Below, piece by piece: positions 2,410 through 5,084 of a stretch of 34,342 bases of DNA. The notes under the pieces are model-generated. The model saw only the letters and a list, made by a program, of their open reading frames with translations, ran no database searches and had not been told where the DNA came from. The stretch spans positions 1-34,342 of IMG/VR virus record IMGVR_UViG_3300021599_000985; one strand, 5' to 3'. Within the stretch, counting starts at the first letter, position 1. Every line of letters starts with the position of its first letter. The translations under genes and the position numbers were made by a program. The DNA is from a virus.

Positions 2410-2636
2410 GCCTTCTTCTTTCCTACGTATACTCCATAAAGTGTCATTAAGAACACCCATGTCTGACCGTCAAATTCTATCGAAAATGCTGTGTCTATGT
2501 CAAGTACCCTAGCGTACCCTTTGCTTCTCATGTCATGACTAAGCATGTTTTCGTACTGGTATTTTAATCTAGGTATACCAGAATCGTCAGCAAACTCAAC
2601 CCTTACTTGAAATCTTTTTATCTGTTTGTGATTCAT
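2334..2636 (-). CDS. Small protein between helicase and primase, unknown
   Basis: About 100 aa from the ATG at 2636 (MNHKQIKRFQ). A longer reading from 2678 would run deeper into the helicase gene and is less likely. The visible pattern is beta-rich (RVEFADDSGIPRLKYQ, IDTAFSIEFDGQTWVFL) with a basic C-terminus. I do not recognise the family. It overlaps the end of dnaB by 41 nt and the start of the primase by 76 nt, both out of frame, so the three are likely co-translated. Position suggests an accessory primosome component, but nothing in the sequence proves it. No strong ribosome-binding site is visible. Confidence 0.6.
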   Translation of the reverse strand: MNHKQIKRFQVRVEFADDSGIPRLKYQYENMLSHDMRSKGYARVLDIDTAFSIEFDGQTWVFLMTLYGVYVGKKKAWLSEGITQGKLIPRSMRPTISSQL

Positions 2637-3864
2637 TTTGTTGGAACGGATTTTCGTAAATTTCCTTGACGATACCACGATTGATATCCCAGTCTAAATA
2701 AAAATTAAAATCGTGACCGTGTCTATTTTTTCTTGACACAATCTCAATCATATTAGTTTGAGGATATCTATGAACAGCCAGTGCCATGTCTGCATCGTAT
2801 TCAATTGCTTTTGACCATGCCACTTGAGACATCATCGGTGGATTATCTTGATCTGAAATGTCGTCTGCTGTTGCTGCAGTGATATCAATAATTGGAATAT
2901 TATTTGACACTGCAAGCATTTTAAACTCACGAGAAACGTTTCTATTTCTTTCTACTTCAGAATTAGAACGCTTGTTGTCATTAAATAGCTGATGATAATC
3001 TAATATAACTAAATCTGGCTTATGCTGATCAATCTTACCTTGAATTGTAGCAGGGGTTACTTCAGAATTTCCTTCATTTGAAATAAGAACAAAGCTGTTC
3101 TTTCCCTCAAACTTTTTGTTTCCCCACGACCTAAAGTCGTCAATATTAATATCTCCTTTTGATAAATCACTTGCACGAAATATTCCAGATCCGAGCATTG
3201 TAAATATGCGGTCACGCATGTTTTCGGGAGACATTTCAAGAGAAACAATCATAGGCTTAAATCCTTGTTCCCAAGCCTTACACGCTAGGTACGCCGTGAA
3301 CCAAGTTTTACCTTTACCTGGCCAGCCGATGGCGACAATTAAATGACCTGGAGCCATGCCCGTTGGGTATGCCTTATCGATTGCAGAAAAGCCAGTAAGG
3401 ATTCCTGGAGCTCCGCCCATTACCGCAGATCTATCTTTTACTGCTTGATAATGTCTTGCTGCATTTTCTACATCAATTATATCTAAATCTCTTACGTTAT
3501 TTGTATACCTGCTTAAATTTGCTAAGTCGCTTTGCATTTGTGCAAGGACTCTAGAGGCTGCATCTTCTTTTAATGCAGAACCTCCACGTATGATGATGGA
3601 CTTTAACTTATTAGAAATGAATTCATTTTTTAATTGGTCTAGGTAGTAACCTGTTTCGGCTTTAGAGTCTACTGGCTCAAAATCTTTGTGTCTTTCAATT
3701 AAGATTCCAACCTCTGGGACTGCTTTAAACTTATAGTAATAACTCTTTAAGCTTTCCCAAATATCTCTGTGAGAAGTAAATAACTCGTCTACGTTATCCG
3801 CAAGCAGAGTGCTTATGTCTTTATTTTTACATACAGCAGATATTAATGTTGCCTCTGTATTCAC
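2596..3864 (-). CDS. dnaB: Replicative DnaB-type helicase
   Basis: A 422-aa RecA-fold hexameric helicase. An N-terminal helical region of about 120 residues, shorter than in bacterial DnaB, leads through a linker to the ATPase core. The P-loop GWPGKGKT is at 180-187, SLEM follows at 208-211, Walker B DLVILDY is at 284-290, and a later DADMALAV segment (357-364) matches the DnaB/RepA pattern. An SRKNRHG stretch near 377-383 probably holds the arginine finger. It unwinds the fork and recruits primase. The start is GTG at 3864, with GGAGGG upstream, and it shares a base with the stop of the previous gene (TAGTG). It is next to a possible loader gene and upstream of the primase, forming a primosome cluster. 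Confidence 0.93.
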   Translation of the reverse strand: MNTEATLISAVCKNKDISTLLADNVDELFTSHRDIWESLKSYYYKFKAVPEVGILIERHKDFEPVDSKAETGYYLDQLKNEFISNKLKSIIIRGGSALKEDAASRVLAQMQSDLANLSRYTNNVRDLDIIDVENAARHYQAVKDRSAVMGGAPGILTGFSAIDKAYPTGMAPGHLIVAIGWPGKGKTWFTAYLACKAWEQGFKPMIVSLEMSPENMRDRIFTMLGSGIFRASDLSKGDINIDDFRSWGNKKFEGKNSFVLISNEGNSEVTPATIQGKIDQHKPDLVILDYHQLFNDNKRSNSEVERNRNVSREFKMLAVSNNIPIIDITAATADDISDQDNPPMMSQVAWSKAIEYDADMALAVHRYPQTNMIEIVSRKNRHGHDFNFYLDWDINRGIVKEIYENPFQQNESQTDKKISSKG

Positions 3865-4178
3865 TATTCGCCCTCCACCATCTTTTTAGTCGCATCAAGC
3901 AAGATGCTGCGATTAACCTTATCTTTTTGTATTTCTTTATTCAAAACATCTATTCTGTCAAAATTGTTATAAAAAAAATTTAATGGGTGACCTGATTTAC
4001 TTGTACTAAAATAATACACTAAGAGCTCCTTGGCACGTTCGTAGCCTACGCTATCTATAACATCTTGCATTGCCCACTTTTCACGAAACTTGTTTATTGA
4101 AATAGACTTATTGTATTTTTCTTTATACAAAGAAATGTATAGGCCAATTAATACGTAAGGCTGTTTTTCATTTGCCAT
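3864..4178 (-). CDS. Small helical protein, candidate helicase loader
   Basis: A 104-aa basic, helix-rich protein with no domain I can name with certainty. The middle contains RAKELLVYYF followed by GHPLNFFYNNFDRI, an aromatic patch of the kind seen in small phage replication accessory proteins. Its stop codon overlaps the GTG of dnaB (TAGTG), so synthesis of the two is tightly coupled, and small genes in this position are often helicase loaders (general knowledge). The role is inference from position and coupling. Its ATG at 4178 is preceded by AAAGAG inside the previous gene, whose end it overlaps by about 11 nt. Confidence 0.6.
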   Translation of the reverse strand: MANEKQPYVLIGLYISLYKEKYNKSISINKFREKWAMQDVIDSVGYERAKELLVYYFSTSKSGHPLNFFYNNFDRIDVLNKEIQKDKVNRSILLDATKKMVEGE

Positions 4179-4371
4179 TATTTAACTCTTTTTCTACTTC
4201 ACGAGTTTTTTCAATTAGCTTTTCTTCAACAAATTTATAAACACGCTCTGTTGCGGAATTTACGTTTTCACCAGATCTGACATCATCTTCTACGCCAATG
4301 CCTATCTTAATGCTTTCGTAATTGCCAAGATTCCTTGTAAACGAAAGGTCCACCTTAACTTTCGTTGTCAT
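4168..4371 (-). CDS. Small acidic conserved-looking phage protein, unknown
   Basis: A 67-aa protein with a beta-strand start (KVKVDLSFTRNLGNYESIKIGIG), an acidic EDDVRSGENVNSATERVY segment, and a C-terminal charged helix (FVEEKLIEKTREVEKEL) likely to form a coiled coil. No enzyme motif is visible. The ATG at 4371 has AAGGAG upstream and overlaps the stop of the zinc-finger microprotein (ATGA). It belongs to the tightly packed early operon between the DNA-binding small proteins and the primosome, so a replication or regulatory role is plausible but unproven. Confidence 0.65.
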   Translation of the reverse strand: MTTKVKVDLSFTRNLGNYESIKIGIGVEDDVRSGENVNSATERVYKFVEEKLIEKTREVEKELNNGK

Positions 4372-4472
4372 TTATGCTCCTTCATATGTCTGCTTAAACT
4401 TTCGTGAGCAAATACGCCCCACCTAAGTTCCCAACTCTTCCCGCACTTTTCACATGTAAGTATTCTAGACAC
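4368..4472 (-). CDS. 34-aa zinc-finger microprotein
   Basis: A very short ORF with a GTG start at 4472, fitting exactly between the HTH gene (stop at 4474-4476) and the 67-aa gene. Its sequence has CEKCGKSW near the N-terminus and SRHMKEHK at the C-terminus, giving C-x2-C ... H-x3-H, a C2H2-type finger with a longer-than-usual 18-residue middle. GGAAGG lies 6 nt before the GTG, an excellent ribosome site. The stop TGA overlaps the next ATG (ATGA), so it also couples translation across the gap. Start, stop and spacing make it very likely a real gene. The function is unknown; nucleic-acid or protein binding is inferred from the fold. Confidence 0.72.
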   Translation of the reverse strand: MSRILTCEKCGKSWELRWGVFAHESLSRHMKEHK

Positions 4473-4473
4473 T

Positions 4474-4953
4474 CTACGCCTTCCATACAGGTACAAATCC
4501 GTTATCGGTCTTAGTATACAATATAATGTTGTGTTTGAAAAGACCCAATAATTCTGCCCTTGACGGAAGGTTTCCTGAATGCCCTGCGTCCAATATGTAC
4601 TGATGTATGTCCAAAATGTCCGATTCGCTAAATAAATATTTAGACCAATTTTTATTGTCTGGATCGCTAATAGAATATATCTTTACGGGTGTTTTAATTT
4701 TACCCTCTAGTATATAGTCTTCAATAGTTATCCTGTGTTTATTTAATAACGAAGCAACTTCTGAAATAGAATAAGCCTTAGACATATTTTTTTCAACCTG
4801 CGAATATGAATACAATACTCTTTTTTTACTTTCATAGTGCCAGGCAATGACTTCGTCTTTAGATCTTGAAGCTCTTAAAACCTTATGCACTTTTTCGTTT
4901 AAGAAGAAATACCGTAGTTCTTTGAGTTTTGATTTTCTAGTTTTTCTAGCCAT
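4474..4953 (-). CDS. Putative DNA-binding protein with MerR/excisionase-like helix-turn-helix
   Basis: 159 aa. A basic N-terminus (MARKTRKSKLKELR) precedes a middle domain with KAYSISEVASLLNKHRITIEDYILEGKIKTP, the pattern of a winged-helix/MerR-like HTH where helix 2 reads DNA and the IL-G-KI-P turn begins the wing. A YLFSESDILDIHQYI helix then completes the domain. It is probably a sequence-specific DNA binder acting as a phage regulator or replication accessory (inference). The ATG at 4953 overlaps the zinc-ribbon gene by 55 nt and has GGAAG immediately before it, closer than ideal, so the exact start is uncertain. It is followed by the zinc-finger microprotein, making three consecutive small genes with nucleic-acid-binding features. 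Confidence 0.75.
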   Translation of the reverse strand: MARKTRKSKLKELRYFFLNEKVHKVLRASRSKDEVIAWHYESKKRVLYSYSQVEKNMSKAYSISEVASLLNKHRITIEDYILEGKIKTPVKIYSISDPDNKNWSKYLFSESDILDIHQYILDAGHSGNLPSRAELLGLFKHNIILYTKTDNGFVPVWKA

Positions 4954-5084
4954 CTTCCGAAAGCACTCGTTTCTTTGTTAATCATATTACGTTTACCACA
5001 CAAAATGCAGAAAACTTCTACGTGAAGTTTTTGTGAAAAAACTCTATCTACAAACACTCTTCCACCGCATTTACCGCACCACAT
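4899..5084 (-). CDS. Zinc-ribbon protein
   Basis: 61 aa from the ATG at 5084. It opens with CGKC (residues 3-6) followed by GGRVFVDRVFS and then CILC (residues 27-30), a two-CxxC zinc ribbon, with a helical tail (FGRWLEKLEN). The start shares its A with the TAA of the metallophosphoesterase gene (TAATG). A GTG further upstream is in frame but would run into that gene. Zinc ribbons of this size in phages are often transcription- or replication-associated. No specific partner can be named. It overlaps the following HTH gene by 55 nt, which suggests coordinate production. Confidence 0.75.
   Translation of the reverse strand: MWCGKCGGRVFVDRVFSQKLHVEVFCILCGKRNMINKETSAFGRWLEKLENQNSKNYGISS

Follow-up and report, generated by a model that had tools for sequence, protein, structure and literature searches.

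The window (the entire stretch of 34,342 nt that was analysed) contains a small gene on the minus strand at positions 4368–4472, which encodes a zinc-finger microprotein of 34 amino acids. The gene begins with a GTG codon (4472–4470), ends with a TGA codon (4370–4368) and is translated as VSRILTCEKCGKSWELRWGVFAHESLSRHMKEHK. A GGAAGG ribosome-binding site (4484–4479, minus strand) is located exactly 6 nt before the GTG, within the 3′ end of the preceding gene. In most relatives the start codon has the same GGAAGGCGGA element ahead of it. The preceding gene (4474–4953, minus strand) encodes an HTH protein of 159 amino acids (phrog_9440, with a MerR-like annotation in Streptomyces phages), and its stop at 4474 falls one base ahead of the GTG. 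At the other end the TGA shares an ATGA overlap with the start of a phrog_5189 gene (67 amino acids; 4168–4371). The operon then continues, always on the minus strand, with genes for a phrog_11101 protein (3864–4178), a DnaB-like replicative helicase (2596–3864), a DNA primase (phrog_47; 1411–2460) and a single-strand DNA-binding protein (phrog_9721; 688–1359). The initial annotation had placed a 34-residue GTG frame between two genes, with this ribosome site and with a stop overlapping the next ATG. All of these features are present, on a strand about which that annotation was silent.

The four putative zinc ligands are arranged as C7-x2-C10, 18 residues, and H29-x3-H33, the two pairs and long middle that had been read from the sequence. 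The cysteine pair is encoded at 4443–4454 and the histidine pair at 4374–4388, both on the minus strand. Just upstream of the HTH gene (4899–5084, minus strand) lies a gene for another small candidate zinc-binding protein, phrog_12850, with two C-x2-C pairs; its true start is probably the ATG at 5084. At 421–627 on the minus strand there is a 68-residue Cys-rich protein (...KCGCCKEDLYAP...RLYHTRNEC...) without a PHROG match.

The frame is short, and might be a chance opening or the decayed piece of a larger gene. Frames of the form C-x2-C-x14-22-H-x3-5-H arise by chance with a mean of 0.29 per window (200 order-1 Markov simulations), and the Cys/His motif by itself is weak evidence that could be due to chance. 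The frame is kept in all 28 IMG/VR loci first found via the HTH gene, and in a wider sample it is intact in the same slot in 76 of 80 IMG/VR loci. This sample was picked by the neighbouring HTH gene only, and not by the finger. Among its 30 distinct finger proteins C7, C10, H29 and H33 are invariant, as are R17, F21, L26 and the glutamate preceding the last histidine. The pooled pN/pS for these proteins is 0.31, and none of the 47 close pairs reaches 1. A chance frame is ruled out by the conservation and the purifying selection, and the intact relocated copies with promoter-like elements of their own (see below) also argue against any non-coding origin, so that this reading retains a negligible probability. 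The frame is almost certainly a real gene, because it is conserved in relatives and not because of its motif. The initial annotation had looked to relatives for a broken frame or lost ligands beside retained flanking genes; there the frame, the ligands and the purifying selection are all kept. A frameshift extension of the HTH gene is likewise ruled out, since the relative frame of the two genes differs between the window and its relatives, and since at some loci they are separated by a gap of 100–300 nt. Such a gap is seen in L190, L202, L240, L250 and others, where the finger still adjoins the phrog_5189 gene.

A DNA-level search with a degenerate pattern that encodes RWG[IV]F[AG][HN][DEA]x[LI][ST]RH located the finger on at least 120 contigs of uncultured phages. 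The conservation figures given above were taken from the HTH-selected set because the pattern-found sample is biased by the pattern itself. In all the fetched loci taken together, every one of the 88 distinct cores has the form C-x2-C-x17/18-H-x3/4-[H/C], so the unusually long middle remarked upon in the initial annotation is general. Both cysteines (alignments A1, A4 and A6) and H29 are invariant. Position 33 is histidine in 84 of the 88 distinct cores and cysteine in the remaining 4, a substitution that a zinc site would be expected to allow. The sequences of a second subfamily resemble CPxCNKELEVRSDFAHxTLSNHxxKEH.

The RWG core of the first subfamily, to which this search was confined, has no match in 84,980 bacterial and archaeal genomes by DNA pattern and alignment. 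When the 34-mer and consensus sequences were run by tblastn against isolate phages and plasmids, nothing convincing was found, and a blast of the locus DNA against phages returned chance pieces only. No Pfam model reaches its cut-off, the best being zf-C2H2_4 (E = 0.0082); against the zf-C2H2 models the window protein scores 8.9 bits (cut-off 25.2) and 15.3 bits (cut-off 27). There is no convincing match in PHROGs (best 0.0086, in one of 51 members) or NCBIfam (best 0.0071), and three representatives gave zero matches in PADLOC. A profile search of the PDB matched the C-x2-C knuckle only. We found no paper on the family in the open-access literature. The family is thus without an entry in any protein family library searched here, and is a variant of the C2H2 kind.

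AlphaFold models of both subfamilies have the beta-beta-alpha order, with the last ligand just beyond the helix (pTM 0.41–0.45). In the window type the strands comprise residues 3–6 and 13–16 and the helix residues 21–32 (pLDDT 79); in the second subfamily the corresponding elements are 4–8, 15–19 and 23–34 (pLDDT 83). The ligand set is that of a C2H2 finger in the broad sense, where replacement of the last histidine by cysteine is allowed. Together with the conservation of the ligands, the predicted fold suggests that the protein very probably adopts a zinc-bound C2H2-like structure. The nearest solved structures found by Foldseek include many C2H2 fingers, several of them bound to DNA; the top matches are BCL11A (probability 0.75), Tramtrack (2drp) and GAGA factor (1yui), none of them significant for so short a query.

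The finger resembles the classical TFIIIA type (Pfam zf-C2H2 and zf-C2H2_4) in its C-x2-C, the hydrophobic residue before the helix, the L-x2-H-x3/4-H and the predicted beta-beta-alpha order. It nevertheless falls outside that class, since its Cys–His spacer is 17–18 residues rather than the 12 of eukaryotic C2H2 fingers (PMC9779718), the entire protein is a single finger and its scores lie below the Pfam gathering cut-offs. Ros/MucR proteins share with it a single C2H2-type finger on the bacterial side. However, Ros has a 9-residue spacer and is a longer protein in which basic flanks stabilize DNA binding (PMC9779718), while the phage finger is almost without flanks, which places it outside this class also. 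AFV1p06 of the archaeal virus AFV1 is another small viral protein based upon one C2H2-like finger with a variable fourth ligand. It has N- and C-terminal extensions and a glutamate as the fourth ligand (PMC3541406); its virus and host are different, and the likeness is not one of shown sequence relation.

The position of the gene varies between phages. It lies with the HTH or the phrog_5189 gene in 82 of the 120 pattern loci listed, and elsewhere in 38. In 19 of 19 large contigs the gene is single, lying either in the replication operon or at another place. The sole multiple copy seen is in a small contig (L059) with two finger genes, one of which has a leaderless-type promoter. Where a large contig has the finger elsewhere the HTH gene is present, usually diverged (25–30%; 72% in G023), with the single finger far away, and the slot next to the HTH gene is empty in those contigs where it was read (G023 and four others). 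In a separate HTH-selected sample of the diverged clade the finger occupies the slot in none of 80 loci, and is found elsewhere in five of the six of these contigs >100 kb that were searched. Functional dependence on the adjacent HTH gene is accordingly unsupported; the finger persists away from an empty slot in G023 and the class-B contigs, and so is independent of that neighbour. It is missing altogether from one class-B contig (103 kb) and, in the window's clade, from two contigs that have the HTH gene (115 and 114 kb), which indicates that it is not essential everywhere. A third context is seen in L113, L129, L173 and similar loci: a small C-x-H-x-W...C-x2-C protein precedes the finger, the stop of the one being closely coupled to the start of the other, and a TGCCC...GGGCA hairpin comes after the finger.

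The finger shares 59–72% identity across the two clades, the highest value of the genes compared (HTH 26–29%, phrog_5189 48–54%, phrog_11101 25–34% and DnaB 35–40%). Either the finger is under strong constraint, or it has been transferred from phage to phage.

In twelve relocated finger copies the ATG is preceded, at exactly 6 nt, by a sigma70-like element, TTGAC-N17-TA...T. Across all fetched loci the element occurs at this distance before 41 distinct ORFs, compared with 0–4 at neighbouring distances; a second peak of 21 is seen at 20 nt. The 6-nt arrangement is common to a set of small phage genes (in L119, L147, L171 and L173, for example), which on its sequence looks like a leaderless early regulon. 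Homologues of the 68-residue Cys-rich protein have a leaderless-type promoter in many loci too. The relocated fingers likewise look as if they were transcribed leaderless from a host-type promoter. Such a promoter would in turn suggest expression early in infection, which we consider rather probable.

Of 19 large contigs, 15 carry a WhiB gene. WhiB is taken as a marker of actinophages (PMC10202952, PMC6802176), and the phages therefore probably infect Actinobacteria. They are probably also of freshwater origin, as judged from the literature on WhiB-bearing phages. The order of HTH, small genes, DnaB and primase is shared with the Stanwilliamsviridae (Streptomyces) and with the Rhodococcus phages Trina and Weasels2. 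Unlike the window, these isolates have an acidic protein of roughly 100 amino acids filling the slot, and have no finger anywhere at a meaningful score.

The best explanation as a whole, which we put forward tentatively, is an early regulatory or adaptor zinc-finger peptide of actinobacteria-infecting phages resembling the 130-kb phages of Streptomyces and Rhodococcus. The peptide would fold around one zinc ion as a single C2H2 (rarely C2HC) beta-beta-alpha finger. In the lineage of the window, where the gene precedes those for replication, its translation would use the ribosome site within the HTH gene. Other lineages would have it as a cassette that has moved, in many cases accompanied by a host-sigma-type promoter of its own and predicted to start leaderless. 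As the most likely mechanism, R17, the helix A-H-D-T-L-S-R and the E-H-K end would make up a conserved face of the rigid finger. Through this face it would engage a partner that is itself widely conserved, most probably a protein of the host or the phage, and thereby serve as a regulator or adaptor. A role as a host-takeover or regulatory peptide had been suggested in the initial annotation, and the promoter-like elements before the relocated copies lend this some support.

Single DNA-binding fingers usually use their flanks. The near absence of flanks in the phage finger points to a protein partner rather than a nucleic acid, a preference that we hold with some hesitation. The main rival, ranked next, is a nucleic-acid-binding regulator that would place its helix and basic residues on DNA or RNA, and so tune phage or host transcription in the manner of AFV1p06 or the GAGA-factor finger. 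This is a possible, if less probable, reading. The DNA-bound C2H2 fingers at the head of the Foldseek matches and the conserved basic residues R3, K12, R17, K31 and K34 would suit it, and speak against a protein partner; moreover AFV1p06 is a virus-encoded stand-alone finger that binds DNA (PMC3541406). Yet the Foldseek matches are all non-significant, the acidic residue that the RWG subfamily conserves at position 2 of the helix disfavours contact with the phosphate backbone, and the flanks amount to only some 6 and 1 residues, while fingers in few copies rely on extensions of the motif (PMC3541406).

The peptide might instead be an anti-defence protein or host-factor inhibitor, encoded by an early gene that is short and mobile, and would then block a target involved in defence or shut-off. 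Its varied positions among accessory genes, the predicted leaderless host-type promoters and its occasional loss would fit such a function. Against this, anti-defence genes typically change fast, whereas the finger is strongly conserved and almost universally single-copy; in the lineage of the window, moreover, it is part of the replication operon. PADLOC, a library of defence rather than counter-defence, gave no match. We regard this reading as quite unlikely.

A bolder version of the early regulatory or adaptor reading would see an undescribed family of zinc-finger microproteins, a single wandering gene of freshwater actinophages expressed from leaderless host-type promoters at the start of infection and directed to one target conserved across hosts. 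That would make it a minimal host-takeover effector consisting of one zinc finger, a proposition that we consider rather doubtful.

Annotation usually passes over genes of this size. The finger is unlisted in the libraries searched, yet is carried on at least 120 viral contigs, and none of the other genes compared across the deep split between two phage clades is as well conserved. With a middle of 17–18 residues and a single finger as the whole protein, it widens the notion of a bacterial-side C2H2 finger. Its single copy, shifting position and promoter signature offer a testable route into how these (probably freshwater) actinobacterial phages begin infection.
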